Shown: positions 14,149 to 32,234 of the stretch, in pieces
How the letters are laid out: the number at the start of each line of letters is the position of its first letter
How positions within the stretch are numbered: the stretch's first letter is position 1
Source: Candidatus Tanganyikabacteria bacterium
Lineage (GTDB): Bacteria > Cyanobacteriota > Sericytochromatia > S15B-MN24 > VGJW01
Assembly (NCBI GenBank): GCA_016867235.1
Contig: VGJY01000025.1
Location: 1-34,474, forward strand
Direction: 5' to 3'
DNA length: 34,474 bases
Translations under genes and position numbers: made by a program
Notes under the pieces: generated by a model
What the model was told of the DNA's origin: nothing
Database searches by the model: none
What the model saw: only the letters and a program-made list of their open reading frames with translations

Positions 14149-15402
14149 ATGGACCTGCTGAGCACGGCCCTGAGCCAGGTGGACGGCGCGCACGGCCGCC
14201 TGATCGTGCGGGGCGAATCGATCGACGACCTGGCGCGGGATGCGGGGTACGAGCGCATGGCCGCTTTCCTGTGGAACGGCCTGTCTGGTGAAGTCGAGAC
14301 AGAGGCGGGCATCCGGGCGGCTCTAGGGGCGGCACGGGTGGCTGCCGCGCGGCTGGTAGCCCCCGTGCTGCGACCAGCCGCGGCCCTGCCGCCAATCAAC
14401 GGCTTGCGCCTGTGCCTGGCCGCCTTGCCGGACGAGGCCGCCCTGCCGGACGAGGCCGCCCTGCCGGACGAGGCCGCCCTGCCGGACGAGGCCGCCTTGC
14501 CGGACGAGGCCGCCCTGCCGGACGGGGCCGCCCTGCCGGACGAGGCCGCCCTGCCGGACGAGGCCGCCTTGCCCGCGACGCGACGCCGCGCTGCCGGCCC
14601 GCCCCCCGGGCAGCCTGCCCCCCGCCCACGCATCCCGGCCCACTACCTGGTGACCGCTGCCGTCCCGGTGATCCTGGCCGGCAGCGCGGCGTTGCGCCGC
14701 GGGCTGGCGCCGCCGGCCCCCGATCCGGCGCTCGGCCAGGTGGCGGACTTCCTGCGCATGATCCACGGCGCGCCCGCGGCGCCCGAGATCGTGCGCGCCC
14801 TCGAAACGTACCTGGTCACCGTGGCTGAGCATGGCCTCAACGCCTCGACCTACGCGGCGCGGGTGATCGCCTCGACGAGCGCCGGGATGGTGGCGGCGGT
14901 CGTGGGCGCGGCGTGCGCGCTCAAGGGGCCCTTGCATGGCGGAGCCCCGGGGCCGGTGCTGGACATGCTCGACGCCATCGCGACGCCCTCCAACGCCAGG
15001 TCCTGGACGGAGGCCGAACTGGCGGCCGGCCGCCGCATCATGGGCTTCGGCCACCGCATCTACCGCGTGCGCGATCCGCGAGCCGACATCCTGCAAGGTG
15101 CCGTGATGCGCCTGGGAGACGACCGGGGACGCCTGGCGTTCGCCCGGGCGGCCGAAGCCGAGATCGCGGCGGTGCTCGCGCGCCGCAAGCCTGACAGGGC
15201 GTTGCCGACCAACGTCGAGTTCTACACCGCAGTGCTCCTGGAGGCGGTGGGCCTCGACCGCGACATGTTCACCCCGGTCTTCGCACTGGGGAGGATGCTC
15301 GGGTGGACCGCGCACGTTTTCGAACAGGTCGCGACCGGCCGATTGATCAGGCCCGAGTCCGCATACGTCGGCCCGCAGGCCGCCGCCACCGTCGGCCGGT
15401 GA
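14149..15402 (+). CDS. Citrate synthase with a hexapeptide repeat insertion
   Basis: 417 aa; GGAGGG lies about six bases before the ATG at 14149. Citrate synthase features are EHGLNASTYAARVIAST (active-site His228), LKGPLHGGA (His263), GFGHRIYRVRDPRA (citrate-binding His/Arg), and GWTAHVFEQVATGRLIRP near the end. The position of the catalytic Asp is Glu in TNVEFYTA, a conservative change that I recall in other citrate synthase subgroups. It condenses acetyl-CoA with oxaloacetate, or propionyl-CoA if a methylcitrate synthase; the sequence does not decide. Residues 91-138 are eight AALPDE hexapeptides absent from normal family members. It has no HTH, unlike its divergent paralogue. Confidence 0.92.
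   Translation: MDLLSTALSQVDGAHGRLIVRGESIDDLARDAGYERMAAFLWNGLSGEVETEAGIRAALGAARVAAARLVAPVLRPAAALPPINGLRLCLAALPDEAALPDEAALPDEAALPDEAALPDEAALPDGAALPDEAALPDEAALPATRRRAAGPPPGQPAPRPRIPAHYLVTAAVPVILAGSAALRRGLAPPAPDPALGQVADFLRMIHGAPAAPEIVRALETYLVTVAEHGLNASTYAARVIASTSAGMVAAVVGAACALKGPLHGGAPGPVLDMLDAIATPSNARSWTEAELAAGRRIMGFGHRIYRVRDPRADILQGAVMRLGDDRGRLAFARAAEAEIAAVLARRKPDRALPTNVEFYTAVLLEAVGLDRDMFTPVFALGRMLGWTAHVFEQVATGRLIRPESAYVGPQAAATVGR
14419..14562 (+). repeat. 18-bp coding minisatellite (AALPDE)x8 in citrate synthase
   Basis: Eight near-perfect copies of GCCGCCCTGCCGGACGAG, differing only by CTG/TTG synonyms and one GAG-to-GGG change (Glu to Gly in unit 6). Near identity at the DNA level indicates recent expansion. 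It stays in frame and is followed by a Pro/Arg-rich stretch before the citrate synthase fold resumes at HYLVTAAVPV. Confidence 0.95.
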
Positions 15403-16652: not shown

Positions 16653-16772
16653 CGCCCCGGCCGCCCGTAAACGGGAAATTTCCTGATTCACCCCTAGGTA
16701 CTTGCCCTCTAAGCTGGTGCCCGAGGCTCGTACGAAGTGCCGCAAGCCTCTTCACGCGGGAGTCCACACCAG

Positions 16773-18650
16773 ATGCCTGAAACGGCCGCGGTCGAGAAGA
16801 CCTGCCAGACCCTGACCCGGCAGACCCACACGCTCGAGATCGTGAGCGACTCGGGAGAGGGCGCGCAGAAGTGCGGCCAGATCTTCGGCCGCGTCAGCGC
16901 CCGCATGGGCAACGGCGTGTGGACGGTCGAGATCATCCCGGCCGAGATCCAGCCGCCGGCCCGCCACCCGACCAGCGCGAGCGGCAACCGCGTGCGCATC
17001 GGGACTGGCCAGGTGACCAACTGGGGCGATGCGGCCGACCTGGTGGTGGCCTTCAACGAGCAGGTCCTGCTGCAACGGCATCGCCTGGGCGCCCTCGCCC
17101 GGGGCGCCATCATCCTGCTCGAGAGCATGTGGGAGAACCACGACGACCCGGACATCCGCGAAGCTCATGCGGCGGCCCTGGAGGAGATGAGTACCGGCGG
17201 CTATCGCTTCGTCATGGTGCCCATGGAGGAGCAATGCCTCCAGCTCGTCGACAACCCTCGCAAGGGCAAGAACATGTTCGCCCTGGGCATGCTCGCCTGG
17301 ATCTACTCCCGCGACATCGAGAAGATCAAGGAGCAGATCGCCTTCGAGTTTCGCAAGAAGCGCAAGGAGATCTACGAGAGCAACGTGACGCTGCTCGACG
17401 CCGGCTTCAAGTGGGCGGGCGAGAACCTCGACTTCCGCGTGGCGGTGCCGTCCGCGCCCTTCGATCGCCCGATGGTGGTGATGAACGGCAACCAGGCCGT
17501 CGCGATGGGCGCCATCGCCGCGGGCCTCGAACTCTGCTCGATGTACCCCATCACGCCCGCCACCTCCGCGTCCCACTACCTCTCGGAGATCATCGAGAAG
17601 TACGGCGGCATCGTCCACCAGGCCGAAGACGAGATCGCCGCCGCCGGCGTGGCCATCGGCGCCTCGTACGCGGGAAAGACCGCTTTCACCATCACTTCGG
17701 GCCCGGGCCTCGCCCTCAAGACCGAACTGCTGGGCCTGGCCATCATGACCGAGTTGCCGCTGGTCGTGGTGGACGTGCAACGCGGCGGGCCGTCCACCGG
17801 CCTGCCCACCAAGGTCGAGCAGGCGGACCTCCTGGCCGCCGTCTACGGCCAGACCGGCGACGCCCCGCACATCGTGCTCGCCCCGGCCACCATCGAGGAG
17901 TGCTTCACCGCGATGATCACCGCCCGGCGCCTGGCCGAGGCCTATCGCGGCGTCGTCCTGGTCCTCACCGACGCCAACCTCGCCACGGGCGTGCAACCCT
18001 TCCCGCGGCCCGTCCTCGACGAGCGCTTCTGCGGCCCGCCGCTGGATTTCGGCCCCGTGCCCGACGGCTTGCGCGCCTACGACTGGGATGCCGAGACCGG
18101 CGTGTCGCGCCGCTTCATCCCGGGCCAACCCGGCGGCATGCACACCGTCACCGGCCTGTCCCATGACGAGCACAGCCGCGTGGGCTACACGCCGGACGTC
18201 CACGAGCGGGGCTGCCTGATGCGCAGCCGCAAGCTCGCGGTGTTCCAGCAAACGCTCCTGCCGCCGGAGGTCCACGGCGACGAGTCGGGCGACCTGCTCG
18301 TGGTGGGCTGGGGTTCGACGCTGGGAGCCATCCAGGAGGCGGTGGACCGCGCCCGCGCCGACGGCCTCCGGGTGTCTTCGCTGCACCTCCGCTTCCTTTC
18401 ACCGCTCGAACCGGGCCTGCAAGCCATTTTCAGCCGGTTCCGGAAGGTGATGACCGTCGAGATCAACTACAGCGATACCGTGGGCGATCCCCACATCACC
18501 GCGGAGAATCGCCGCTACGGGCAGCTGGCCTGGTTGCTGCGGGCCGCAACCCTGGTCGACGTCGACTGCTGGACCCGCGTCCCGGGCGAGCCACTCCGGC
18601 CGGGCGACATCCACCGCGGCATCCTGGCGCAACTGGCGGCGTCGGTGTGA
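16773..18650 (+). CDS. korA: 2-oxoglutarate:ferredoxin oxidoreductase, gamma-alpha fused subunit
   Basis: 625 aa from the ATG at 16773, with GGGAG ten bases upstream; a GTG at 16737 would add 12 residues but has no ribosome binding site. The N-terminal ~200 residues are the gamma domain, starting LEIVSDSGEGAQKCG. The alpha part begins at about 236 with MNGNQAVAMGAIAAGLELC, followed by the hallmark YPITPAT near 257, HQAEDEIAAAGVAIGASYAG and SGPGLALKTE, then VQRGGPSTGLPTK. With KorB it oxidatively decarboxylates 2-oxoglutarate (or a related 2-oxoacid) to the acyl-CoA, reducing ferredoxin. The fused gamma-alpha layout is the KorA/ForA type. The stop is immediately followed by the korB ribosome binding site. 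Confidence 0.93.
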   Translation: MPETAAVEKTCQTLTRQTHTLEIVSDSGEGAQKCGQIFGRVSARMGNGVWTVEIIPAEIQPPARHPTSASGNRVRIGTGQVTNWGDAADLVVAFNEQVLLQRHRLGALARGAIILLESMWENHDDPDIREAHAAALEEMSTGGYRFVMVPMEEQCLQLVDNPRKGKNMFALGMLAWIYSRDIEKIKEQIAFEFRKKRKEIYESNVTLLDAGFKWAGENLDFRVAVPSAPFDRPMVVMNGNQAVAMGAIAAGLELCSMYPITPATSASHYLSEIIEKYGGIVHQAEDEIAAAGVAIGASYAGKTAFTITSGPGLALKTELLGLAIMTELPLVVVDVQRGGPSTGLPTKVEQADLLAAVYGQTGDAPHIVLAPATIEECFTAMITARRLAEAYRGVVLVLTDANLATGVQPFPRPVLDERFCGPPLDFGPVPDGLRAYDWDAETGVSRRFIPGQPGGMHTVTGLSHDEHSRVGYTPDVHERGCLMRSRKLAVFQQTLLPPEVHGDESGDLLVVGWGSTLGAIQEAVDRARADGLRVSSLHLRFLSPLEPGLQAIFSRFRKVMTVEINYSDTVGDPHITAENRRYGQLAWLLRAATLVDVDCWTRVPGEPLRPGDIHRGILAQLAASV

Positions 18651-18661
18651 GGGAGACAGTC

Positions 18662-19621
18662 ATGACGATGACGACACTGCAAGCCTGCTCGCTCCTGGGC
18701 TGCCCCATAGACGACCGCTTCCTCGCGGCCGACGACTACGCCGGTCCCTTGGCCCGCTGGTGCCCCGGCTGCGGCGATCACGCCATCCTCGCATCGGTGC
18801 GCCGGCTCTGCGAGAACCACCAGTTGCAGCCCGAACAGACGGTCTTCGTGTCGGGAATCGGCTGCTCGAGCCGCTTTCCCCACTACATGAAGACGTACGG
18901 CTTTCACGGCCTCCACGGCCGCGCGCTGCCGCTGGCACTGGGCGTGAAGCTGCGGCGGCCCGACCTGACGGTCTTCGTGTCCACCGGCGACGGCGACTGC
19001 TTCTCGATCGGCAGCGCCCACTGGCTGCACACCGTGCGCTACAACCCCGACATGGTCGTCATGGTGTTCGACAACAACGTCTACGGCCTCACCAAGAACC
19101 AGACGTCGCCCACCAGCCCGCAGGGGTACCCGTCCAACACGCAGCCCACGGGCGCGCTGCTGGGCCCGATGAACCCGCTCTCGGTCACCCTCGGCATCTC
19201 GGGCGCCTCCTTCGTGGCGCAGACATGCGACTGGCTCCCCGCGCACCTGGACGCCGTGCTGGAAAAGGCCTTCGCGCACCGCGGCCTGTCCTTCGTGCGC
19301 ATCCTGCAACGGTGTCCCGAGTACACCGACAAGATCTTCACCGAGGCGATGCGCAACCCCGACCGCGTCGAACTGCTGACCCACGAGGACGGCGTGGACC
19401 TGCCGCAACTGGCACGTACCTACCAGCACCAGACCAGGCACGACCCTTCGGACCTCCACCGGGCGCGCCAGCTGGCCGAATCGACCGACCGGTACCGGCT
19501 CGGCATCTTCTACCGGAATGCGGCCATGCCGGTCTACGAGCAGGTGCGAGCGGTGCCGGCCCGCAGCGCCGCCGAGCGCCTGGCCACCCTCGAGCTCGAA
19601 CTCGACAAGTACGCGGTCTAG
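18662..19621 (+). CDS. korB: 2-oxoglutarate:ferredoxin oxidoreductase, beta subunit
   Basis: 319 aa from the ATG at 18662, six bases after AGGGAG; the frame opens slightly earlier at GTG 18647, inside korA. It is the thiamine-diphosphate-binding subunit: WCPGCGDHAI with two Cys for the 4Fe-4S cluster, GIGCSSRFPHY, the ThDP motif GDGDCFSIG followed by FDNNVYGLTKNQTSPTS, and a C-terminal Kor-type tail (FYRNAAMPVYEQVR). No ferredoxin-like delta subunit is encoded next to it, so a separate ferredoxin must accept the electrons. It is co-transcribed with korA, 11 bp apart. Confidence 0.94.
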   Translation: MTMTTLQACSLLGCPIDDRFLAADDYAGPLARWCPGCGDHAILASVRRLCENHQLQPEQTVFVSGIGCSSRFPHYMKTYGFHGLHGRALPLALGVKLRRPDLTVFVSTGDGDCFSIGSAHWLHTVRYNPDMVVMVFDNNVYGLTKNQTSPTSPQGYPSNTQPTGALLGPMNPLSVTLGISGASFVAQTCDWLPAHLDAVLEKAFAHRGLSFVRILQRCPEYTDKIFTEAMRNPDRVELLTHEDGVDLPQLARTYQHQTRHDPSDLHRARQLAESTDRYRLGIFYRNAAMPVYEQVRAVPARSAAERLATLELELDKYAV

Positions 19622-19639: not shown

Positions 19640-20629
19640 ATGACCGTCACGACAACCGACCGCGGCGCTCGCGCCCTGGAAGCCCTCGCGGGCCCGCTGG
19701 ACGAGTTCGGCGGAGCGCTGCGCGCCACCCGCGACGCCCTGCGCGCCCGCCTTCCGCGGGGAGAAGCGCCCGCCGAGCGGCTGGCGCAGCTTGCCGCCGA
19801 ACTCGGTCCCTTCGCCACCGGGCGCATCGACCTGGATCGCTTTGCCGCCCTCTTCGGCACGCAGGTCGCCCCCAGCGCCCCGGGCGCCGACGGCATCGCG
19901 CGTGCCGTGGCGGCCCTGGAAGCCTTGCTGGCCGAGGGCGATCAGCTGGTCAGACTGCGCGTCGCGCCCGGCGGCAGCCTGTATGACACGGTCAACAGGG
20001 GCCTTGAGCACGCGGGCGCGGCATTCGCCGCCGCCAGGGAGGCGCGGGCGCTGCTCGACGGCTCTGGCGACGCGCCGCGCGGCGAAGTCGGCGGCCTGGC
20101 GTTCCGCCACTGGAGCCGGGCCGAGCGCCGCCTGGCGCCGCCGCTCGTCGTCGAGGTCGCGGGTGCCGACCTGCGCGCCGGCGGCCTGGCCGAGTTCCTG
20201 GACGGCGGGGTCAAGATCGTGCTGCTGGTGGACGGCCCGAGCGCGCCCGCGCCGCTGGCGCGCCTGGTGGCGCCGGGCGTCTGGGTCCTGCAGACCGCCG
20301 ACGGGTCCGACCTCGACCGCTTCGCGGCCTGGCCCGGCCCCGGCATCGCGGCCTGGGTTTCCGCGGACGCGGCCGTCTTCTCCCACGACCCGGCGGGCGG
20401 CTTGGCCCCCTGGCAGCGGATCGCGGTCGCCAGCCTGCCCGAGGCGGCGCCCCGCAACCCCATCGGCGGGGCGAGCGTCGCCCAGCAGGTGGCCGAACTG
20501 CAGATCCTGGCAAGCCTGGCCCAGCGGCCAGAGGGCGGCGAGGCGGCCGCGCCGGCGGCCGATGGCGACACGGCCGGCAAGCTGGCCGCCTGGCTGCTGC
20601 GCAACGCCGACCTCTCCGGGTTGCCGTAG
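19640..20629 (+). CDS. Unknown Cys-free protein in the kor-rnf cluster
   Basis: 329 aa, 18 bp after korB, with AGGAG about nine bases before the ATG. I do not recognise the family. The N-terminal third is helical and Ala/Leu/Arg rich; the middle reads GSLYDTVNRGLEHAGAAF and VGGLAFRHWSRAERRLAPPL; the second half has a beta-alpha look (VKIVLLVDGPSAPAPLARL, VWVLQTADGSDLDRF). There is no cysteine, signal peptide or membrane segment, so it is not an Fe-S protein. VWVLQTADGSD and FSHDPAGGL weakly echo VFVLQSSQASP and LCYDPAAGP in the PFOR encoded two genes downstream. Its place between korB and rnfB suggests a scaffold, assembly or regulatory role for oxidoreductases; this is inference. Confidence 0.8.
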   Translation: MTVTTTDRGARALEALAGPLDEFGGALRATRDALRARLPRGEAPAERLAQLAAELGPFATGRIDLDRFAALFGTQVAPSAPGADGIARAVAALEALLAEGDQLVRLRVAPGGSLYDTVNRGLEHAGAAFAAAREARALLDGSGDAPRGEVGGLAFRHWSRAERRLAPPLVVEVAGADLRAGGLAEFLDGGVKIVLLVDGPSAPAPLARLVAPGVWVLQTADGSDLDRFAAWPGPGIAAWVSADAAVFSHDPAGGLAPWQRIAVASLPEAAPRNPIGGASVAQQVAELQILASLAQRPEGGEAAAPAADGDTAGKLAAWLLRNADLSGLP

Positions 20630-20686: not shown

Positions 20687-21550
20687 GTGAGCCTCGCGAC
20701 CATCGGCCTGGCGGCCCTCATCCTCGGGGCGGTGGGGCTCGCCTTCGCAGGATTGATAGGCCTGGTCCACCGCCGCTTCGCGGTGTGGGAGGATCCGCGC
20801 ATCGAGGGCGCCGTCTCGCTACTCCCGGGCAACAACTGCGGCGCGTGCGGCTTGCCGGGCTGCCGCGGCTTCGCGGAGGCGGTGGTCGGCGGGACGGTCA
20901 AGCCGGCCCAGTGCACGGTCCTGTCCGCGGACGGCGTCGACGAGCTGGCGGCCTACCTAGGGGTGGACGCCGGCGAGGCCAACAAGCGCGTCGCGCGCCT
21001 GGCCTGCGGCGGCGGCAGCGACATGGCGGTGATGCGAGCGCAGTACGTCGGGCTGCAGACCTGCAAGGCGGCCGCTGCGGTGGCCGGCGGCGGCAAGGGC
21101 TGCCCGTGGGCCTGCCTGGGCCTTGCCGACTGCGAGCGGGCCTGCACGTTCGACGCCATCTTCATGAACCCCGTCGGCCTGCCGGTCGTCGTCCCCGAGA
21201 AGTGTACGGCGTGCAACGACTGCGTCGTGGCCTGCCCCCGAGATCTGTTCTCGCTGCAGCCGCTCGATCAGAAGCTCATCGTCCAGTGCCGCAGCCTCCT
21301 GGCGGGCGAGCAGGCCGAGGCGCTCTGCCGGGTCGCCTGCAACGCCTGCGGCCGCTGCGTCGCCGACGCCGCGCCGGGGCTCATCTCCATCGTGGACAAC
21401 CTGGCGGTCGTCGATTACGCGAAGAACAAACTGGCCACGGCTGCCGCCACCGCGCGCTGCCCGACCGACTCCATCGTGTGGGTGGAAGGCCAGCAGTTCG
21501 ATCCGGCCCGCACCACGCCCGCGGGCCGCCTGGGAGTACCAGCCGAATGA
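20687..21550 (+). CDS. rnfB: Rnf complex subunit B (multi-cluster ferredoxin protein)
   Basis: 287 aa from a GTG at 20687, preceded by AGGAGG. Residues 1-25 form one membrane helix. Next is the RnfB-specific 4Fe-4S domain (NNCGACGLPGCRGFAEAV ... QC), then a two-cluster ferredoxin domain (CPWACLGLADCERAC ... CTACNDCVVACP), then a further Cys group, CRVACNACGRC. The extra C-terminal cluster puts it among the long RnfB forms rather than the short E. coli type. RnfB is the presumed entry point for electrons from reduced ferredoxin. Its stop overlaps the PFOR start as ATGA, and the other rnf genes follow only after that gene. Confidence 0.94.
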   Translation: MSLATIGLAALILGAVGLAFAGLIGLVHRRFAVWEDPRIEGAVSLLPGNNCGACGLPGCRGFAEAVVGGTVKPAQCTVLSADGVDELAAYLGVDAGEANKRVARLACGGGSDMAVMRAQYVGLQTCKAAAAVAGGGKGCPWACLGLADCERACTFDAIFMNPVGLPVVVPEKCTACNDCVVACPRDLFSLQPLDQKLIVQCRSLLAGEQAEALCRVACNACGRCVADAAPGLISIVDNLAVVDYAKNKLATAAATARCPTDSIVWVEGQQFDPARTTPAGRLGVPAE

Positions 21551-24500
21551 AACTCGCCGCCCGGCCGCAGTCCGCGCCAGCCGCCGCTCCGCCGCGATTC
21601 CCCGGAGTCCCGGCATTCACGGACGGCTGCGGCGCCGTCGTGGCGGTCGAGACGGCGGCGAGCGAGGGCGCCGGCGCCTATCCCATCACGCCGTCCACAC
21701 CCATGGGCGAGGGCTGGGCGCAAGCGGTCGCGGCCGGCAAGCGCAACGCGTTCGGCCGGCCCCTGGCATTCTTCGAACCGGAGGGCGAGCACGCCGCCGC
21801 CGCGGTCACGGCCGGCATGAGCATGACCGGGATGCGCGCCGCCAACTTCTCCTCCGGCCAGGGCATCGCGTACATGCACGAGTCGCTGTACGCCGCGGCC
21901 GGCAAGCGCCTGACGTACGTCCTGAGCGTGGCGGCGCGCGCCATGACCAAGCACGCGCTCAACGTCCACGCGGGCCATGACGATTACCACGCGGTGGACG
22001 ATACCGGCTTCTTCCAGCTTTTCGCGAAGAACCCCCAGGAAGCGGCCGACCTGACGGTGATCGCCCACCGCATCGCCGAACTCGCCCTCAACCCCGGCCT
22101 GGTGGCCCAGGACGGGTTTCTGACCAGCCACGTGGTGGAGTCGGTGCGGTTGCCCGAACCGGCCCTCGTGCGCGCCTACCTGGGCGATCCGGCCGACCTC
22201 ATCGACGCGCCGACGCCGGCGCAGCGCATGGTTTACGGCGAGAAACGCCGCCGCGTGCCCGCCGTGTTCGACGTCGACTTCCCGGCCGCACTCGGGCCGG
22301 TGCAGAACCAGGACGCCTACCAGCAGGGAGTGGCCGCGCAGCGGCCCTTCTTCTTCAACCACGTGCGCGAGTTCGCGGACCAGGCGTTCGAGGAGTATGC
22401 CGGTCTCACCGGGCGGCACTACGCGCGGGTCGAGGCGTACCGGGCGGACGATGCGGAGATCGTCCTGGTGGCCCAGGGGTCGGTCGTGTCGGACGCGCAG
22501 GCCGTGGCCGATCACCTCCGCGCGACGCGCAAGCTCAAGGTGGGCGTGCTGGGCCTGACGATGTTCCGGCCGTTCCCGGCCGACCTGCTCACGCGCCACC
22601 TGGCCGGCAAGAAGGCGGCGATCGTGCTGGAACGCGTGGATCAGCCGCTCGCGGTCGATCCCCCGCTGCTGCGCGAGATCCGCGCGGCGGCCTCCAAGGC
22701 CCTCGAGAATGCCCTGGCCGCGGGGCAGAGCCTGCCGTACCCGGACCTGGCAAAGATCCCGGCCGACCGCCAGCCGCGCTTCTTCTCCGGCTGCTTCGGC
22801 CTCGGGTCGCGCGACCTGCAACCGGGCGACCTTGTGGCCGCGGTCGAGAACGCGTTGCCCGGCGGGGCGGGCCGGCGGCACTTCTACCTTGGGGTCGAGT
22901 TCGTGCGGCAAGGCACGCGCCTGCCCAAGCTCCAGATCTGGCAGGAACAGTTGCTCGCGGGTTACCCGCACCTGGCGGATCTCGCCCTTCCGCCGGGCGC
23001 CAACCTGGACCTCCTACCCGCGGGATCGCTGGCGGTGCGCATCCACTCGGTGGGCGGCTGGGGTGCCATCACCATGGGCAAGAACCTCGGCGTCACGACG
23101 GCCGAACTGCTCGGCCGGCACCTCAAGGCCATGCCGAAGTACGGCTCCGAGAAGAAGGGCCAGCCCACGCTGTTCCACTTCATCGTCGCCCCCGAACCCG
23201 TGCGCCTCAACTGCGAAGTCAGGCACGTCGGCGCGGTGCTCTCGCCCGATCCCAACGTCTTCATGCACGGGGACCCTCTCGCCGGCCTGGCCGAGGGCGG
23301 CGCCTTCGTGGTGCAGAGCAACCTCCCGCCGGGCGAGTTGTGGGCCGCTATCCCGGCATGGGCGCGCCAGATCATCCTGGACCGGAAGGTTCGCGTCTTC
23401 GCCCTCGACGCGTTCCGCATCGCCACCGAGGAGGTCAGCGATCCGGGCCTGCGGTACCGGTTGCAGGCGGCGGCATTCATGGGTGCGTTCTTCGCGACGG
23501 GCGTCGATCCCGAAATCGCGGCCCTCGGCGAGGAGAAGGTGCTGGCCGGCATCCGGGAGCAGATCGCCCGCAAGTTCGGCGCGCAGGGAGATCGCGTCGT
23601 CGAGGACAACATGCGGGCCATCCGCCGGGGCTATGAAGAGGTCGTGCCAATCGAGTGCGCGCCGCTCGACATGGCCGGCGCCGCCGACGCCGCGGTGCCC
23701 GGGATCCCGCCGGAGCTCGATCGCCGCAAGGCGAGTGCCGGCTTTGCCAACCCCGGCCGGTTCTGGGAGCAGGTGGGACATCCGTGGAAGCTGGGCCAGG
23801 ACGGCATCGCCGATCCCTTCGCCGCGCTGTCGTTCATCCCGGCGGCTACCAGCACCATCCGCGACCTGACGTTCATCCGCTTCGAGGTACCGCAGTTCGT
23901 CGCCGACAAGTGCACCGGTTGTGGCCAGTGCTGGACGCAGTGCCCCGACTCGGCCATCCCCGGCGTGGTCACCTCGCCCCAGGATCTCCTCGGGGCCGCG
24001 ATCAAGACCCTCGCACAGGACGGGCGCAGCTTCGACAGGCTCAAGGCCGTGGTCCGGCCCGTTGCGGCGGCGGCCCGCGGCCTGCTCGCGGAGAAGTGGC
24101 CGCTGCCGGTCGGCGAGCTATTCGCGGAGGCCTACAAGCAGACCACCGCCAAGCTCGAGTTCGACGCCGAGAAGCAGGCCGCCCTGGATGCCGAGTTCGC
24201 GCCGGTGCGGGAGGCCATCGCCCGGTTCCCGGTCGCACGGACCGCGCCGTTCTTCGACGTGCCCGAGGCAAACGAGAAGGGCAGCGGCGGCCTGCTCTCC
24301 ATCACCGTCAACCCGGAAGCCTGCAAGGGCTGCAACCTCTGCGTGGACGTCTGCCACGACGGCGCCCTGATCACCGTGCCGCAGGACGACCGGATGGATG
24401 CCAGCCTGCGGGCCAACTGGCGGCTCTGGCGCAACCTGCCCGAGACCCCCGACCGGTTCGTCAACGTCTCCAACCTGGCCGAGGGCATCGGCGTGTTGCC

Positions 24501-26625
24501 CACGCTGCTGCTCAAGCAGCGGATCTACGGCTCGCTGTGCCCCGGAGACGGCGCCTGCATGGGCTGCGGCGAGAAGACCGGCGTACACCTGGTGCTCTCG
24601 GCGGTAAACGCCCTGCTGCTGCCCCGGGTCGAGAAGTACGTCGCGCGCCTGCGCGACCTGTCGGCCCGCCTCGACGAGATGGCCCGCAAGCACCTGGCGG
24701 CCGGCGCCGATCTGGCGGCGATCGCCCGGGGCGCGGAAGCGGCGCCCGGCACGACCCCGGCCGACGCAGGGGCCGCGCGGCGCATCGCCCGCATCAAGGC
24801 CGACGTGGACGATCTCGTGTGGCGCTACGAAGCGGGCCCCGGCGGGCGAGGCCGGGCGAACGCGGGCATCGCGAACGCCACCGGCTGTTCCAGCGTCTGG
24901 GGAAGCACGTGGCCCCTCAACCCGTACCCGATCCCGTGGGTCAACCACCTCTTCCAGGATGCGCCTTCCCTGGCCATCGGCCTCTTCGAGGGGCAGATGC
25001 GGAAGATGGCTGCGGGCTTCGCCGCCGTCCGCCGCGCCGAACTCGAAGTGGCGGGCCAGTACGACCCGGCCGAGCACGACCCGGAACTGGCCACGCTGGG
25101 GTGGCAATCCTTCACCCCAGAAGAGTTCGACCTGTGCCCGCCGATCTTCGCGGTGGGCGGCGACGGCGCGATGCTCGACATCGGCTTCCAGAACCTCTCG
25201 CGCCTGCTCGCCTCGGGCAAGCCCATCCGCGTGCTGATCCTCGACACGCAGGTGTACTCCAACACGGGCGGCCAGGCCTGCACGAGCGGCTTCACCGGCC
25301 AGGTTAGCGACATGGCGGGCTACGGCGCGGCGCAACGCGGCAAGGAAGAGGTGCGCAAGGAGGCCGCCCTGCTCGCCATGGCGCACCGCGACGTTTTCGT
25401 GCTGCAATCGTCGCAGGCCTCTCCCGCCCACCTCATCGGCGGCACGCTGCGGGCGCTGCAGGCCCGGAGGCCGTCGGTCGTCATCCTCCATTCGCCCTGC
25501 CCGCCCGAGCACGGCATCGGCGACGAAGCCGCCGAGCGCGCGGCGCGGCTGGCCCTCGAAAGCCGGGCCTTCCCCCTGCTGTGCTACGACCCGGCCGCCG
25601 GCCCCGCGCTAGCCGACCGGCTAAACCTGGACGGCAACCCGCAGGTGGGAGAGTTGTGGCCGACCTACGAGCTGGCCTACCTGGCTGATGACGGGTCGGG
25701 GCAGCGCATGGAGCTACCGCTCACCACCGCCGACTGGGCGGCCACCGAGGGGCGGTTCCGGCAGCACTTCGCGCCGCTCTCCGCGGAGGCCGACGCGGTG
25801 CCGTTCCACGAATACCTGGAGCTGCCGGCCGACGATCGCGAGGGCAAGACGCCTTTCATCTACCTGCTCGGCGCGGGCCGCAAGCTCGACCGTCTGGCCG
25901 TCGCCGCCGAGATCGTGCGTCTGGCCGAGGATCGTCGCGACTGCTGGCGCCTGCTCGAGGAGATGGCGGGGCTGCGGCTCGCGCCTTCGGTCGAGCAGGC
26001 CGCCAGGGCGGCGCTGGCCAGCGAGTGGCAGGCGAAGGTGGATGCCTTGCGGGCCGAGTACGAGGCTCGGCTGGCCGAGTTCCGCCGCGAGTACCCGGCG
26101 AAGGTGGCGCGGCGCCTGGCCGAGGGCCTGGTGCGCGCCGGCGACCTCGACCCGTCGGTCGCCGCCATGCTGTCGCGGGTGGGTTCGCTGGCCGATCTCG
26201 AACCCGTGGCAGGCTGGGGCGAGCCGGCACCCGGCGGCAACGGCGGCGGCCCGGCCCGCGAGAGTGCGCCCCCCCGCGTGGCCGCCGCGACGGTCGAGGC
26301 GCCGCCGGCCCCCTCGGCTCCCGCGGCCGCCCCGGAGGCCGCGTCCGCCCCCGCACCGGCCGCCGACGCCGGGATCGGCCTCGACCCGTACATCGAGACC
26401 GAGCGGTGCACCAGTTGCGACGAGTGCACGCGACTCAACAAGCGCATGTTCGCCTACGACGCCCAGAAGCAGGCCTACATCAAGGATGCGACCGCGGGCA
26501 CGTTCCGCGACCTGGTCATGGCCGCCGAGAAGTGCCCGGTGCGCATCATCCACCCCGGCACCCCGCTGAATCCCGGCGAGAAGGACCTCGCCAAGTGGGT
26601 CAAGCGGGCCGAGCCCTTCAACTAG
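21547..26625 (+). CDS. Pyruvate:ferredoxin oxidoreductase with C-terminal ferredoxin domain
   Basis: 1692 aa, about 500 more than homodimeric PFOR/NifJ. The start is the ATG overlapping the rnfB stop; the open frame further upstream is only a shadow of rnfB. Parts in order: pyrimidine-binding domain with YPITPST (45); transketolase-C-like region; gamma domain with GGWGAITMGKNLG (about 500); two 4Fe-4S clusters, CTGCGQCWTQCP (788) and CKGCNLCVDVC (926); ThDP domain with CMGCGEKTG (1003), NATGCSSVWG and GGDGAMLDIGFQN (1204), interrupted by a helical insertion after 1020; a helical region; a Pro/Ala linker (about 1558-1614); and a ferredoxin-like domain with CTSCDEC (1621) and a distant Cys-Pro (1663). 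It should oxidise pyruvate to acetyl-CoA and pass electrons to its tethered domain and on to Rnf. Confidence 0.9.
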   Translation: MKLAARPQSAPAAAPPRFPGVPAFTDGCGAVVAVETAASEGAGAYPITPSTPMGEGWAQAVAAGKRNAFGRPLAFFEPEGEHAAAAVTAGMSMTGMRAANFSSGQGIAYMHESLYAAAGKRLTYVLSVAARAMTKHALNVHAGHDDYHAVDDTGFFQLFAKNPQEAADLTVIAHRIAELALNPGLVAQDGFLTSHVVESVRLPEPALVRAYLGDPADLIDAPTPAQRMVYGEKRRRVPAVFDVDFPAALGPVQNQDAYQQGVAAQRPFFFNHVREFADQAFEEYAGLTGRHYARVEAYRADDAEIVLVAQGSVVSDAQAVADHLRATRKLKVGVLGLTMFRPFPADLLTRHLAGKKAAIVLERVDQPLAVDPPLLREIRAAASKALENALAAGQSLPYPDLAKIPADRQPRFFSGCFGLGSRDLQPGDLVAAVENALPGGAGRRHFYLGVEFVRQGTRLPKLQIWQEQLLAGYPHLADLALPPGANLDLLPAGSLAVRIHSVGGWGAITMGKNLGVTTAELLGRHLKAMPKYGSEKKGQPTLFHFIVAPEPVRLNCEVRHVGAVLSPDPNVFMHGDPLAGLAEGGAFVVQSNLPPGELWAAIPAWARQIILDRKVRVFALDAFRIATEEVSDPGLRYRLQAAAFMGAFFATGVDPEIAALGEEKVLAGIREQIARKFGAQGDRVVEDNMRAIRRGYEEVVPIECAPLDMAGAADAAVPGIPPELDRRKASAGFANPGRFWEQVGHPWKLGQDGIADPFAALSFIPAATSTIRDLTFIRFEVPQFVADKCTGCGQCWTQCPDSAIPGVVTSPQDLLGAAIKTLAQDGRSFDRLKAVVRPVAAAARGLLAEKWPLPVGELFAEAYKQTTAKLEFDAEKQAALDAEFAPVREAIARFPVARTAPFFDVPEANEKGSGGLLSITVNPEACKGCNLCVDVCHDGALITVPQDDRMDASLRANWRLWRNLPETPDRFVNVSNLAEGIGVLPTLLLKQRIYGSLCPGDGACMGCGEKTGVHLVLSAVNALLLPRVEKYVARLRDLSARLDEMARKHLAAGADLAAIARGAEAAPGTTPADAGAARRIARIKADVDDLVWRYEAGPGGRGRANAGIANATGCSSVWGSTWPLNPYPIPWVNHLFQDAPSLAIGLFEGQMRKMAAGFAAVRRAELEVAGQYDPAEHDPELATLGWQSFTPEEFDLCPPIFAVGGDGAMLDIGFQNLSRLLASGKPIRVLILDTQVYSNTGGQACTSGFTGQVSDMAGYGAAQRGKEEVRKEAALLAMAHRDVFVLQSSQASPAHLIGGTLRALQARRPSVVILHSPCPPEHGIGDEAAERAARLALESRAFPLLCYDPAAGPALADRLNLDGNPQVGELWPTYELAYLADDGSGQRMELPLTTADWAATEGRFRQHFAPLSAEADAVPFHEYLELPADDREGKTPFIYLLGAGRKLDRLAVAAEIVRLAEDRRDCWRLLEEMAGLRLAPSVEQAARAALASEWQAKVDALRAEYEARLAEFRREYPAKVARRLAEGLVRAGDLDPSVAAMLSRVGSLADLEPVAGWGEPAPGGNGGGPARESAPPRVAAATVEAPPAPSAPAAAPEAASAPAPAADAGIGLDPYIETERCTSCDECTRLNKRMFAYDAQKQAYIKDATAGTFRDLVMAAEKCPVRIIHPGTPLNPGEKDLAKWVKRAEPFN

Positions 26626-26635
26626 CGAGGCGAGC

Positions 26636-27991
26636 GTGATCCAGTTTGGCAGTGTGTGGGTCACTCCCGGGTCAAGCCCGGGGTTCCGTCATGGGGTCCA
26701 CCCGCCCGAAAACAAGGAACTGACCGAGCACCTGCCGATCCGGCGCCTGCCGTATCCCGCCGAGGTGGTGATCCCCCTGCGGCAGCACACGGGCAAGCCG
26801 GCGCGGGCGGTCGTGCGGGCGGGCCAGCACGTCGAACGCGGGGACGTGATCGCCGAGGCCGACGGCTTCGTGTCGGTGCCCATGCACGCCTCGGCGGCCG
26901 GCCGCGTGGTCGAGGTGGGGCTCTGGCCGCATCCCGACGGCTCCTGGTCGCCGGCGGTGCGCATCGCCGTCGATCCCTTCTCGGCGCAGATCGAGCGGCC
27001 GCGCCTGGTACCCGCCTGGGAGCCGCTCACCCCCAAGGAGGTGGGCGCCGCCATCCAGCAGGCCGGCCTGGTGGGCCTGGGCGGCGCGGCGTTCCCGACT
27101 CACGTGAAACTGGCGCCGCCGCCCGACGTCACGCTCGATACCCTGGTGGTCAACGGCTGCGAGTGCGAGCCGTACCTCACCACCGATCACCGCACGATGG
27201 TCGAGTACGCCGAAAGGGTCCACATGGGCGTCCGCATCTTGCTGAAGGCCCTTGGCGTCTCCCGGGCGCTGATCGGCGTCGAGCGCAACAAGCCCGACGC
27301 CATCGCGGCCCTGCAGCGCACGCGGCCCGCCGATCTGCCGGTCGAAGTGGTACCCCTGGAGGTCAAGTATCCGCAGGGCGCCGAGAAGATGCTCATCAAG
27401 ACCCTCCTGGGCCGAGAGGTGCCGTCGGGCAAGCTCCCGATGCACGTGGGCGTGGTGGTCCAGAACGTGGGCTCGGTGGCCACGGTGGCGGAGGTCTTCG
27501 AGACGCGGCTTCCCCTGGTCGAGCGCATCGTGACCGTCACGGGACGCGGCGTGCGCCAGCCCGCCAACCTCATCGTGCCCATCGGCACGAAGCTGCGCGA
27601 TCTGCTGGAGGCGTGCGGCGGCCTGGCGCCCGACGCGGGCGAGGTGATCTTCGGCGGGCCCATGATGGGCGTCGCGCAGGCCTCGCTCGACGTGCCCGTG
27701 CTCAAGGGCACGACGGGCGTGGTGGTGCTGTCGCGAGACGACGTGAAGGTCCAGGAGCAGCATCCGTGCATCCGGTGCGGGCGCTGCATCGAGGCCTGCC
27801 CGATGCTACTCAACCCGCAGATGCTGGGCCGCCTGGCCAAGGCCGGCAAGTACGAGGACATGCCGGCCTACCACCTGGCCGACTGCGTCCTGTGCGGTTG
27901 CTGCTCCTACGCCTGCCCGTCCAACATCCCGCTCCCGCAGCTGTTCGTGGCGGCGCGGGGCGCGCTCCGCAAGCAGCAGGCCTCCGCATGA
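26636..27991 (+). CDS. rnfC: Rnf complex subunit C (NADH-binding, 4Fe-4S)
   Basis: 451 aa from a GTG at 26636 with GAGGCGAG just upstream. It follows the family pattern: FRHGVHPPENKELT near the N-terminus, biotinyl-lipoyl-like FVSVPMHASAAGRVVEV, a Nuo51-like FMN/NAD domain (GLGGAAFPTHVKL, NGCECEPYLTTDHR), a SLBB region, and two 4Fe-4S motifs, CIRCGRCIEACP and CVLCGCCSYACP. RnfC carries electrons to NAD+ on the cytoplasmic face. The first ~17 residues are unusual because a GC-rich palindrome lies in their codons. It overlaps rnfD by ATGA. Confidence 0.96.
   Translation: MIQFGSVWVTPGSSPGFRHGVHPPENKELTEHLPIRRLPYPAEVVIPLRQHTGKPARAVVRAGQHVERGDVIAEADGFVSVPMHASAAGRVVEVGLWPHPDGSWSPAVRIAVDPFSAQIERPRLVPAWEPLTPKEVGAAIQQAGLVGLGGAAFPTHVKLAPPPDVTLDTLVVNGCECEPYLTTDHRTMVEYAERVHMGVRILLKALGVSRALIGVERNKPDAIAALQRTRPADLPVEVVPLEVKYPQGAEKMLIKTLLGREVPSGKLPMHVGVVVQNVGSVATVAEVFETRLPLVERIVTVTGRGVRQPANLIVPIGTKLRDLLEACGGLAPDAGEVIFGGPMMGVAQASLDVPVLKGTTGVVVLSRDDVKVQEQHPCIRCGRCIEACPMLLNPQMLGRLAKAGKYEDMPAYHLADCVLCGCCSYACPSNIPLPQLFVAARGALRKQQASA
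26666..26682. repeat. Palindrome inside the 5' end of rnfC
   Basis: CCCGGG-TCAAG-CCCGGG forms a 6-bp hairpin at codons 11-16 of rnfC, with TCACT before and GTTCCGTCATG after. The core resembles the small dispersed palindromic repeats known from intergenic DNA of alphaproteobacteria. Here it is read in frame as TPGSSPG, before the conserved RnfC sequence begins. It may also influence translation of the early mRNA. Confidence 0.5.
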
Positions 27992-29001
27992 GCGCACCGC
28001 ACCTGGTCGTCACGGCCTCGCCGCACCTGGCCGGCAAGCTGACCACGCCCGGCGTGATGTGGCAGGTGGTCCTGAGCCTCGCGCCCGTGGTGGCGGCCGC
28101 CACGTACTTCTTCGGGATCAGCGCCTTGCTGGTGATCGCGGCGTCCATCGCCGGCGCCGCGGCCACCGAGGCGGCTTTCGGGCGCCGGGGCACGCTGCGC
28201 GACGGGTCGGCCGTGGTCTGCGGTATCTTGCTCGGGCTGACGCTGCCGGCCGGCCTGCCGCTCTGGATGGCGTTCGTTGGAGCCGTTTTCGGCATCGGCG
28301 TGGGCAAGGCGGTGTTCGGCGGCCTCGGCCAGAACCCGTTCAATCCCGCCTTGCTCGGACGCGCCTTCCTGCAAGCCGCGTTCCCGGTGGCCATCACCAC
28401 CTTCCCGCCGCCGGGCGGGCGGGCGTGGTGGCACCTGGCGGGAGACAACTTCGCCCTCCCGCTGATGCGCTCCGGCGTGGACGCGATCACCGCCGCCACG
28501 CCCCTGGGCCTGATGAAGTTCGAGCGGCAAGGCACCGAACTGTGGGCCCTGGCGATCGGCAACACCGGCGGATCGCTCGGCGAGACGGCCGGGATCGTGA
28601 TCGTGGTCTGCGGCGCCTATCTGGTCTGGCGCGGCCTGATGAACTGGCGCATCCCGGCCAGCATCCTGCTGACGGTGGCGCTGTTCGCCGGCGCGCTCAA
28701 CCTCCTGGCGCCGGACAAGTTCCCGGGGGCCCCGTTCATGCTGCTGTCGGGGGGGTTGCTGCTCGGGGCGATCTTCATGGCCACCGATCCGGTGACCAGT
28801 CCCACTACCGGCCGCGGTTGCTGGCTGTTCGGGATCGGCATCGGCTTGCTGGTCGTGATCATCCGGCTCTGGGGCGGCCTCAACGAGGGCGTCATGTACG
28901 CCATCTTGCTGATGAACGCACTGGTGCCGTTCATCGAGCGCATCAGCCAGCCCGTGCCCTTCGGGAAGGCCGCGGCCAGGCCCGCGGGGAAGCAGTCATG
29001 A
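27988..29001 (+). CDS. rnfD: Rnf complex subunit D (membrane flavoprotein)
   Basis: 337 aa from the ATG at 27988, which overlaps the rnfC stop. It is a polytopic NqrB/RnfD family membrane protein; the start LVVTASPHLAGKLTTPGVMW is family-like. Many hydrophobic helices are seen, with GLGQNPFNPALLGRAFL in a conserved loop. The covalent FMN site is DAITAATPLG, with Thr171 as acceptor, corresponding to the TxATPL motif of other RnfD proteins. Near the end, IFMATDPVTSPTTGRGCWLFG and GGLNEGVMYAILLMNALVPFIER are conserved. Flavinylation would be done by the ApbE encoded at the end of the run. It helps form the ion-translocating core. Confidence 0.96.
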   Translation: MSAPHLVVTASPHLAGKLTTPGVMWQVVLSLAPVVAAATYFFGISALLVIAASIAGAAATEAAFGRRGTLRDGSAVVCGILLGLTLPAGLPLWMAFVGAVFGIGVGKAVFGGLGQNPFNPALLGRAFLQAAFPVAITTFPPPGGRAWWHLAGDNFALPLMRSGVDAITAATPLGLMKFERQGTELWALAIGNTGGSLGETAGIVIVVCGAYLVWRGLMNWRIPASILLTVALFAGALNLLAPDKFPGAPFMLLSGGLLLGAIFMATDPVTSPTTGRGCWLFGIGIGLLVVIIRLWGGLNEGVMYAILLMNALVPFIERISQPVPFGKAAARPAGKQS

Positions 29002-29702
29002 GCGAACCGGTCCTCGCGCCGCCTGGCGCGCCGCCCCCCGAGGCGCCTCTCGCCCCGCCGGCTGAGGCGGCCGAGACCGGGAAGGTCCCGGCCGGCGTGC
29101 TGCTCGGCGTTTCCGGCGCGATCGCCGGCCTGCTCATCGCCGGCGTGTTCGGCGCGGCCGAGCCCACCATCCTGGCCAATCGCCAGGCCCGGCTGGAAAA
29201 GGCGGTCGTCGAGGTCCTGGCGTCGCCCGAGAAGTTCGAGCGGTTGTACGTGATCGGCGGAGGCCTGGCGCGCGAGGTGCCGGCCGGAACCGATCCCAAG
29301 GGAATCGAGTCGGTCTACCTCGGCTACGGTCCGCAAGGTAAGCGGCTGGGCTTTGCCGTCGTGGCGGCCGGGCCAGGGTTCCAGGACACCATCCGGCTGA
29401 TCTACGGCTACGATCCGGCCGGCAAGCGCCTCACCGGCATGAAAGTGCTGGAGTCCAAGGAGACGCCCGGCCTGGGCGACAAGATCGAGAAGGATGCGAG
29501 CTTCGTCGGCCAGTTCGTCGGCCGCCTGGCGCCGCTCCTGGGCGTCAAGCCCAAGGCCAAGGGTTCCGACGAGCCGAACGCCATCGTGATGATCACCGGC
29601 GCGACCATCTCGTCGCGCGCGATCGTCCGCATCATCAACACCTCGCTCGCCCGGATGGGCCCGATGCTGCACGGCTACTGGGACGCGGAGACCCGGCGAT
29701 GA
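28998..29702 (+). CDS. rnfG: Rnf complex subunit G (covalent FMN protein)
   Basis: 234 aa from the ATG at 28998, overlapping the rnfD stop. A Pro/Ala/Glu-rich cytoplasmic N-terminus of about 30 residues precedes one membrane helix (GVLLGVSGAIAGLLIAGVFG). The periplasmic FMN-binding domain follows, with YGYDPAGKRLTGMKVLESKETPGLGDKI and the flavinylation motif MITGATISSRAI, Thr203 being the acceptor attached by ApbE. It is slightly longer than usual because of the Pro-rich N-terminus. After it comes a 124-bp gap, the only sizeable one within the rnf genes. Confidence 0.95.
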   Translation: MSEPVLAPPGAPPPEAPLAPPAEAAETGKVPAGVLLGVSGAIAGLLIAGVFGAAEPTILANRQARLEKAVVEVLASPEKFERLYVIGGGLAREVPAGTDPKGIESVYLGYGPQGKRLGFAVVAAGPGFQDTIRLIYGYDPAGKRLTGMKVLESKETPGLGDKIEKDASFVGQFVGRLAPLLGVKPKAKGSDEPNAIVMITGATISSRAIVRIINTSLARMGPMLHGYWDAETRR

Positions 29703-29791
29703 GTCGGTCACCAGCCGCCCCGAAACCTGTTCACGAGCCCCTCGCCGGGCAGGGATGCCCGGCGGACCGTCACGGACGGCCCAGCGGGGGG

Positions 29792-29821
29792 CCTCGGGGG
29801 GGCGGCACCCCCCCGAGGAGG
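29792..29821 (+). promoter_or_regulatory. Hairpin overlapping the rnfE ribosome binding site
   Basis: CCTCGGGGGGG (29792-29802) pairs perfectly with CCCCCCCGAGG (29808-29818) around CGGCA, an 11-bp, nearly all-GC stem. The last three bases of the right arm are the first half of the AGGAGG (29816-29821) that lies five bases before the rnfE GTG. If the stem folds, that site is partly hidden. No T-run follows, so it is not an intrinsic terminator. Confidence 0.6.
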
Positions 29822-29826
29822 CTCTA

Positions 29827-30498
29827 GTGAGCAAGACCACCGCGCGGGAGGATCTGGTCCGCGGCGTCTGGCGCGAGAACCCCGTGCTCGTGCAGATGCT
29901 CGGCCTGTGCCCGGCCCTGGCCGTGACCAACACCGTCGAGAACAGCCTGGTCATGGCCGCGGCCACGACCTTCGTGCTCCTGTGCTCGAGCCTGCTGGTG
30001 TCGCTGGTCCGCCGCATCGTGCCTGGCCAGGTACGCATCACCACGTACATCCTGATCATCGCGACGTTCGTCACCGTGGCCGACATCGGCCTGGAAGCGC
30101 TGCTGCCGGACGTCCACAAGGCCCTCGGGGCCTTCGTGGCCCTGATCGTGGTCAACTGCATCATCCTGGGGCGCCAGGAAGCTTTCGCCTCGCGCAACGG
30201 CGTCTGGCGGTCGCTCCTCGACGCGGCCGGCACGAGCGTCGGCTTCCTGATCGCGATGCTGCTCATGGGGTCGGTGCGCGAGATCCTGGGTTCGGGCACG
30301 TTCCTGGGCCACGCGGTGTTCGGCAAGAACTTCGAGCCGTGGGTCGTCATGGTGCTGCCGCCCGGCGGCTTCTTCACCATCGGCCTGCTGCTCCTGGCCC
30401 TGGCCTGGTGGGAACGGCGGAAGGCCGCGCGGCTGGCCGCGCCGGCAGCCGGCGCGCCGGCCTCGGAAACGCGCGAACTGGTCGGGGGGGCCCGGTAG
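29827..30498 (+). CDS. rnfE: Rnf complex subunit E (membrane)
   Basis: 223 aa from a GTG at 29827, five bases after AGGAGG; the open frame back to 29755 lacks family-like sequence. It belongs to the RnfE/NqrD family of six-helix membrane proteins: RENPVLVQMLGLCPALAVTNT, LVMAAATTFVLLCSSLLVS, VNCIILGRQEAFAS and GSVREILGSGTF. Cys28 and Cys111 sit in the two half-helix repeats that, with their RnfA counterparts, bind an iron centre in the membrane. A basic, Ala-rich tail of about 25 residues follows the last helix. It abuts rnfA with no spacing. Confidence 0.96.
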   Translation: MSKTTAREDLVRGVWRENPVLVQMLGLCPALAVTNTVENSLVMAAATTFVLLCSSLLVSLVRRIVPGQVRITTYILIIATFVTVADIGLEALLPDVHKALGAFVALIVVNCIILGRQEAFASRNGVWRSLLDAAGTSVGFLIAMLLMGSVREILGSGTFLGHAVFGKNFEPWVVMVLPPGGFFTIGLLLLALAWWERRKAARLAAPAAGAPASETRELVGGAR

Positions 30499-31077
30499 AT
30501 GGCGGAACTGGCGATCATCTTCGTCTCGGCGCTGCTCATCAGCAACTTCACGCTGGCGATGTTCCTCGGACTGTGTCCGTTCCTGGGCGTCTCCAAGCAG
30601 ATCCCCACGGCGCTCCGGATGGGCGCGGCCGACATCTTCGTGCTGACCCTGACGTCGGTTTGCGCCTGGGCGCTCAACACCTACGTCCTGCCCCACGCGC
30701 CCTACTTGCGGCTCATCACCTTCATCATCGTCATCGCCTCGCTCGTGCAGATCGTCGAGATGGTGATCAAGAAGCTCAGCCCCACGCTGTTTCGCGAGCT
30801 AGGCATCTACCTGCCGCTCATCACCACCAACTGCGCGGTGCTGGGGCTCGCGATGTTCCAGACCAATCGCGGCTACGGCCTGATCGAGGGCCTGGTGTTC
30901 GCCGTAGGGGCGGGTCTCGGGCTCACGCTGGCCCTGGTGATGATGGCGTCGCTGCGTGAGACCCTCGACCTGGCCGACGTTCCGAAGGTGGCACAGGGCA
31001 CGGCCCTGGTCTTCCTGGTCGCGGGCTGCCTGTCGCTGGCGTTCATGGGCTTCGCCGGCCTGCTGAGTGCGGGGTAG
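30499..31077 (+). CDS. rnfA: Rnf complex subunit A (membrane)
   Basis: 192 aa; the ATG directly follows the rnfE stop. It is an RnfA/NqrE family six-helix membrane protein: ALLISNFTLAMFLGLCPFLGVSK (Cys26), LITTNCAVLGLAMF (Cys112) and ASLRETLDLADVPK. The two Cys match those of RnfE; together they ligate the intramembrane [2Fe-2S] centre known from NqrD/NqrE and Rnf structures. It shares the inverted-topology pseudo-symmetry with RnfE. It completes a B-(PFOR)-C-D-G-E-A gene order. Confidence 0.96.
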   Translation: MAELAIIFVSALLISNFTLAMFLGLCPFLGVSKQIPTALRMGAADIFVLTLTSVCAWALNTYVLPHAPYLRLITFIIVIASLVQIVEMVIKKLSPTLFRELGIYLPLITTNCAVLGLAMFQTNRGYGLIEGLVFAVGAGLGLTLALVMMASLRETLDLADVPKVAQGTALVFLVAGCLSLAFMGFAGLLSAG

Positions 31078-31084
31078 GCGCGAG

Positions 31085-31246
31085 ATGGGAACGGGCGATC
31101 TAATCGGAATCGTGGCCTGCGCCGCGCTGTTCGTGGCGTTCGGCCTGCTGTATCGGGGCCGCGGCGGAGGAGCTTGCGGCGGCAGTTGCGGCGCGTGCGG
31201 GGACAAGCCCCCGGAGCGGTGCCGCTCGGAGGTCGATCATGCGTGA
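31085..31246 (+). CDS. Small Cys-rich membrane protein, NqrM-like
   Basis: 53 aa, seven bases after the rnfA stop, with GCGAG before the ATG. The layout is one N-terminal membrane helix (LIGIVACAALFVAFGLLY), a short basic stretch (RGRGG), then a Cys motif ACGGSCGACGDKPPERC with Cys31, 35, 38 and 46. Size, topology and Cys tail resemble NqrM (DUF539), the factor needed to mature the iron site of Na+-NQR, whose gene often lies beside apbE. Here it lies between rnfA and apbE, overlapping apbE by eight bases. FeoB-associated Cys-rich proteins are an alternative. A role in building the RnfA/RnfE iron centre is inferred. Confidence 0.75.
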   Translation: MGTGDLIGIVACAALFVAFGLLYRGRGGGACGGSCGACGDKPPERCRSEVDHA

Positions 31247-32234
31247 ACGCAACCCCGTGCTGGGCCGGCGGGACTTCGTCGTCCTGGGCGTCGGCGCCTT
31301 CGTGGCGCTGGCGTTGCCCTTTGCCTGGGCGCGGCCTGGGTTGTTGCGACGGCAGGTCCCGGTGATGGGCACCATCGCGGAGTTCGCCGTGGCGGCCGGC
31401 GGGCTGCCGGGCGAGCGCGAACGGGCGCAGCGCGCCATCGACGCGGCCATCGCCGAGTTGCTGGACGTCGAGCGACGCATGACGCGCTTCGAGGCCGGCT
31501 CGGACGTCTCGCGGGCCAACGAGGGAGCGGCGCGGGCGCCCGTAGAGATCGGCCGGGATACCGGCCTCGTGCTGCGCGAAGCCCTGCGCTGGGCGCGCGC
31601 CACGGACGGCCGGTTCGATCCGGCGCTCGGCCGAGCCACGGCGCTCTGGGATGTCGCGCGGCGCAAGTCGCCGCCGCCCGCCGCGCTGTTCACGCGGCTC
31701 GCCGGCCGCGACCTGTATCGCGCGGTCAGCCTGGCCGGCGATCTCGACCGGCCGGCGGTGCGGTTCGAGGATGCCGACGTGGCGCTGGATCTGGGCGGCA
31801 TCGCAAAGGGCTACGGCGTGGATCGGGCGGCCGCGGCGTTGCGGTCGCATGGCGTCGAGAACGCGCTGATCAACGTGGGCGGCGATCTGGTGGCCCTGGG
31901 TGCCGCACCGGGCGAGGATCACTGGCGGGTCGGCGTCCGGTCGCCGCAGGCCCCCGGCGCGCTGGCGGGCGAACTGGCCGTCCGCGACATCGCGGTGGCC
32001 ACCTCGGGAGACTACGAGCAGTTCTTCGCGTACGGCGGCAGGCGGTACCACCACCTGCTGGATCCCGAGACCGGCGCGCCGCGCCTCGCTTCCTTCCACA
32101 GCGTGACCGTCGAGGCCCCCACGTGCATGGCCGCCGACGCGGGCGCCACGGCCGTCTTCGGCCTCCCGCCGGCCGCGGCCGGCCGCCTCCTGGCCCTCGC
32201 CGCGCCGGGGGCGCGGGTGGCGAGCGTGGTGTAG
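31239..32234 (+). CDS. apbE: FAD:protein FMN transferase ApbE
   Basis: 331 aa from the ATG at 31239, seven bases after GGAGG and overlapping the preceding small gene. The N-terminus (GRRDFVVLGVGAFVALALPFAWA) looks like a Tat signal, so the enzyme acts outside the cytoplasm, where RnfG and RnfD present their acceptor Thr. Motifs are VMGTIAEF, ERRMTRFEAGSDVSRAN, ALDLGGIAKGYGVD, NVGGD, ATSGDYEQFF and HHLLDPETG; the last two are typical of the FAD/Mg2+ site. It transfers FMN from FAD onto Thr residues of Rnf flavoproteins. It ends the collinear run that begins at korA. Confidence 0.95.
   Translation: MRERNPVLGRRDFVVLGVGAFVALALPFAWARPGLLRRQVPVMGTIAEFAVAAGGLPGERERAQRAIDAAIAELLDVERRMTRFEAGSDVSRANEGAARAPVEIGRDTGLVLREALRWARATDGRFDPALGRATALWDVARRKSPPPAALFTRLAGRDLYRAVSLAGDLDRPAVRFEDADVALDLGGIAKGYGVDRAAAALRSHGVENALINVGGDLVALGAAPGEDHWRVGVRSPQAPGALAGELAVRDIAVATSGDYEQFFAYGGRRYHHLLDPETGAPRLASFHSVTVEAPTCMAADAGATAVFGLPPAAAGRLLALAAPGARVASVV

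Follow-up and report, generated by a model that had tools for sequence, protein, structure and literature searches.

The rnf operon and the small gene behind rnfA

The window, by which is meant the whole analysed stretch of 34,474 nucleotides from a Candidatus Tanganyikabacteria bacterium, carries an rnf operon in which a gene for a small protein, here designated X, is located between rnfA and apbE. The genes of this operon, with the models or evidence that identify them, are as follows.

20687..21550, + strand: rnfB, intact; N-terminal helix and FeS motif present (PF04060)
21547..26625, + strand: PFOR-type pyruvate:ferredoxin oxidoreductase, 1692 aa, with ferredoxin-like C-terminal domain
26636..27991, + strand: rnfC (TIGR01945 above cut-off)
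27988..29001, + strand: rnfD (TIGR01946 above cut-off)
28998..29702, + strand: rnfG (PF04205; TIGR01947 under its cut-off)
29827..30498, + strand: rnfE, with Cys28 and Cys111 numbered from the GTG at 29827 (TIGR01948 above cut-off)
30499..31077, + strand: rnfA, with Cys26 and Cys112 (PF02508 and TIGR01943 above cut-off)
31085..31246, + strand: X, 53 aa, one helix followed by a Cys tail (translation, conserved position, AlphaFold2)
31239..32234, + strand: apbE flavin transferase, its first 8 nt shared with X (PF02424)

X is a real gene in the window. A reading made previously from the sequence only had placed a 53-aa gene between rnfA and apbE, and the ORF 31085-31246 (+) indeed translates into exactly 53 aa, MGTGDLIGIVACAALFVAFGLLYRGRGGGACGGSCGACGDKPPERCRSEVDHA, starting 7 nt past the rnfA stop and ending within the start of apbE; both neighbours were confirmed by Pfam and NCBIfam models. 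The single membrane helix and the four tail cysteines of that reading were likewise recovered, the helix being predicted by AlphaFold2 at residues 3-24 and the tail cysteines being Cys31, Cys35, Cys38 and Cys46 (C31-x3-C35-x2-C38-x7-C46), while an extra cysteine, Cys12, lies within the helix. The block-mean pLDDT was above 90 at residues 1-20 and about 50 in the tail, which is predicted to be disordered, and the AlphaFold2 model of X displayed nothing beyond helix and disordered tail. Also, the cysteine pairs claimed for the Rnf subunits, C26/C112 in RnfA and C28/C111 in RnfE, are present as described and nearly invariant in relatives, the individual residues being kept in 127/127 and 126/127 related RnfA sequences and in 78/79 and 79/79 related RnfE sequences, respectively.

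The PFOR gene overlaps rnfB via ATGA, so that a single operon encodes both Rnf and ferredoxin reduction. The PFOR is unusually long and its 4Fe-4S ferredoxin-like domain comprises residues 1617-1669. Directly upstream of rnfB, genes for a korAB-like two-subunit 2-oxoacid:ferredoxin oxidoreductase (16737-18650 and 18647-19621) and a 329-aa ORF that gave no Pfam match (19640-20629) are found. Elsewhere in the window, a gene at 12764-14074 (- strand) encodes a citrate synthase domain joined to a MerR-type helix-turn-helix and adjoins a separate citrate synthase gene (14149-15402).

Among 117 sampled genomes of the phylum, only the window genome possesses rnfA. The tetranucleotide profile of the rnf half of the window agrees with its own genome at 0.85-0.94, as compared with 0.81-0.94 for pieces of that genome, and this agreement counters the idea of a foreign or misbinned contig and makes an acquisition followed by amelioration likelier. 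The rnf region (20687-32234) is probably an old acquisition.

Distribution of X among rnf operons

A survey for homologues in the same position, proposed along with the initial reading, was performed with 80 RnfA from a genome scan, two plasmid loci and the window, in a sample without Clostridia, Thermotoga and Methanosarcina; 82 rnfA ends had enough downstream sequence to be scored. With X defined as a small ORF having one helix and tail cysteines near the rnfA end, X was detected no more than 200 nt past rnfA in 57 of the 82 loci. Under a strict filter X was present at 53/82 rnfA ends versus 1/372 ends of other rnf or apbE genes, and an X-like ORF was encountered at 31/4980 random positions. 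X often overlaps rnfA or apbE, the rnfA end being overlapped by 23 of 58 X starts, and as a rule there is one X per rnf operon. Carriers belong to about ten bacterial phyla (Gemmatimonadota, Planctomycetota, Acidobacteriota, Rokuibacteriota, Myxococcota, Pseudomonadota, Verrucomicrobiota, Kiritimatiellota, Hydrogenedentota and Bacteroidota) and include a cultured bacterium, Parasulfuritortus cantonensis (L052). The dN/dS values of 0.12-0.53 across 14 close X pairs show that X evolves under purifying selection.

A search profile (A1) built from the 57 X was subsequently employed to search 229 Gammaproteobacteria and 247 Bacteroidota genomes, a few of which are closely related to training genomes. 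The sole training genome among the strong gammaproteobacterial matches (G155) was excluded from the count of new matches. All 14 new gammaproteobacterial matches with E < 1e-5 were located directly behind rnfA, versus none of 7 weaker ones, and as the sole new strong match in Bacteroidota was also behind rnfA, the total amounts to 15/15 held-out strong matches. Among the weaker matches, that at L117 (E 7.9e-5) turned out to be a genuine NqrM adjoining apbE. Weak matches away from rnfA were obtained at L120, L118, L121, L124 and L125; other helix-plus-Cys peptides occur among them, for instance L120 with ...KSGSCGGCSACGGDSCSD, indicating that further unnamed families of such layout exist. From the position statistics, the held-out genomes and the dN/dS values, it is evident that X is not a chance ORF.

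In a tree of 127 RnfA rows, 45 rows lacking X form one branch (100/97), and the other 82 rows contain all 74 X, with 8 rows lacking X scattered among them. The X label requires 8 changes on this tree versus 40.9 with shuffled labels. The branch without X consists of canonical operons, in which rnfA is mostly followed by rnfB, whereas most operons with X have the order rnfB-PFOR-rnfCDGEA-X(-apbE). Both Rnf types can share one genome (G155). Among the scattered rows lacking X, L005 comes from a genome with a second rnf operon that carries X (L215), and for L029 (Thiomargarita) an X-like gene unlinked to rnfA was detected (L228, about 1501-1644). The L228 gene is flanked by rhodanese-like and ABC-ATPase-like ORFs, as judged by eye.

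Relation of X to known families and possible roles

The label "NqrM-like" that X had initially received holds for architecture, predicted topology and the apbE neighborhood but not for homology. PF04400 gave no match to the window X up to E 10 and was absent from the matches listed for the 57 X members (25 of 33 families). The motif GSCGG, invariant in 19 NqrM collected, is lacking in the X tail. The comparison with an HMM of DUF539/NqrM, which had been suggested as a check, turned out negative in that X scored no higher than X with shuffled tails. X is thus ruled out as a member of the NqrM family by profile, missing GSCGG and shuffle controls. As to topology, the mean charge pattern predicts a cytoplasmic X tail, like that of NqrM, though the same prediction was obtained individually for only 41 of 57 members, which weakens the case for the NqrM analogy. 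NqrM genes are found next to apbE or, in nqr operons, on the side of nqrE. NqrM itself is rare where X occurs: PF04400 had 0 matches anywhere in the window genome (G000), and NqrM was present in 3/50 and 1/37 of other rnf genomes.

Profile-profile comparisons of X with NqrM, FeoB_associated and the N-terminal region of RnfB (RnfB-N) yielded probabilities of 86-92%, but these matches were not accepted as homology because column-shuffled controls scored close; judging from these shuffles, they rest mainly on the common layout of a helix followed by cysteines, the NqrM match spanning only helix and first Cys. A search of NCBIfam with X returned nothing useful, no PDB chain matched X, Rnf structures included, and a literature search retrieved no named relative. 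To judge from these searches X is a family without Pfam or NCBIfam model, and the check for clear membership in an unrelated family revealed none. The sole Pfam match of the window X was to PF12669 (FeoB_associated; 22.4 bits, E 1.5e-4, cut-off 27 bits), which 16/57 members match weakly. X might be an outlying member of FeoB_associated, a membrane peptide with a general role in Fe(II) handling whose location in rnf operons is incidental. The Cys spacing of the window X meets the published motif Cx3-5Cx2-3Cx6-8C (PMC8749426), although spacing differs among other X, and an HMM of Bacteroidota FeoB_associated members gave at least 8 bits for 21% of X versus 8% of tail-shuffled X. However, no match exceeded the PF12669 cut-off across 51 rnf genomes, the window X is not beside feoB, and strong X matches were found behind rnfA only, bar one unlinked case, which makes this origin unlikely. 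Even less probable is a derivation from RnfB, namely that X is a duplicated N-terminal piece of rnfB, left when rnfB moved upstream, that kept an RnfB-like docking or cluster role. Canonical operons have rnfB at the position of X, and hhalign aligned X with RnfB-N at a probability of 90% over 46 columns including three Cys, a score reached by 1/60 tail-shuffled and 0/60 helix-shuffled controls; yet this score resembles those against NqrM and FeoB_associated and may reflect architecture only, and the RnfB FeS motif C-x2-C-x4-C-x16-C, fixed in 48/48 RnfB, is absent from the window X, whereas Cys number and spacing vary between X members, most having four tail Cys. An outright replacement of RnfB by X was rejected because rnfB is intact upstream.

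The variable Cys number and spacing, which would suit a metal-handling role more than a fixed cluster, also bear on a doubtful, though less remote, alternative, namely a structural or electron-transfer role for X as a small subunit whose tail holds an Fe-S centre linking PFOR/ferredoxin input to the membrane core. X is fixed to one Rnf clade, its tail mostly has four cysteines, and PFOR is present within the operon in 36/39 testable X loci versus none of the 9 testable loci in which rnfB follows rnfA. However, the cysteines are too variable for a conserved cluster fold, the tail is predicted to be disordered, and X did not match any chain of the Rnf structures. PFOR may still be the true partner of X, a possibility weakened by L051, in which X occurs without PFOR; conversely, PFOR occurs without linked X in L005, L010, L020, L027 and L084.

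As X follows rnfA throughout one Rnf branch in about ten phyla, it is probably a helper of the Rnf pump that has been overlooked, perhaps loading the iron-sulphur centre of the pump. In the best reading X would work like NqrM and yet be no detectable member of the NqrM family, and by analogy an NqrM-like function is plausible. We tentatively favour, with a probability of roughly 0.4, that X is a clade-specific Rnf accessory, an assembly or iron-handling factor for the RnfA/RnfE centre analogous to NqrM. Its helix would be anchored N-out/C-in beside RnfA and RnfE, and the flexible cytoplasmic Cys tail, after binding either Fe(II) or a nascent [2Fe-2S], would pass it on to the intramembrane cluster formed by C26/C112 of RnfA and C28/C111 of RnfE. 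This would parallel what NqrM is proposed to do in Na+-NQR, with the neighbouring ApbE serving the flavin part. The more specific proposal that X represents a maturation factor particular to Rnf, the first to be described, loading the RnfA/RnfE [2Fe-2S] as an independent counterpart of NqrM and marking a mostly PFOR-linked branch, is possible, if somewhat more tentative. Against the favoured explanation stand the 8 rows in the X branch without linked X and the lack of NqrM sequence homology. The dedicated Rnf iron-site factor of the sequence-only reading gains from the clade specificity and conserved position of X and from carriers being nearly all without NqrM. However, canonical Rnf retain the RnfA/RnfE Cys pairs without X and mostly without NqrM, which among the Gammaproteobacteria was found in 26/229 genomes versus an RnfA-family match in 153/229, so that X is not generally required for the iron site; either the need for X is specific to its clade or X has another job, for instance at the PFOR-linked input side or as a small subunit.

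NqrM is required for maturation of the NQR iron centre and is named for NQR only in a 2025 RNF/NQR review (PMC12174285). The papers retrieved neither explain how Rnf acquires the buried iron-sulphur cluster of RnfA/RnfE nor describe an iron maturation factor specific to Rnf. X is a concrete candidate for Rnf iron-sulphur assembly, for which the canonical branch without X provides a natural contrast, and it can also serve to recognise a separate kind of Rnf operon, in most cases linked to PFOR.

Compared with known systems, X resembles the N-terminal region of RnfB, whose gene usually adjoins rnfA in canonical operons, in having a helix and then a Cys cluster, but differs from it in lacking the fixed motif spacing and in being encoded in the window operon alongside an intact RnfB. 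With FeoB_associated it shares size, helix, Cys spacing in the window and a weak profile match, although it stays under the curated cut-off and its genomic link is rnfA. Although the GSCGG and C-x7-13-C-x1-3-C spacing of NqrM (PF04400/DUF539) are absent from X, which has no profile match to that family, both proteins possess an N-terminal helix, positive charge behind the helix and a tail of four Cys, and both are encoded next to apbE and to genes for subunits that are RnfA and RnfE or homologous to them.
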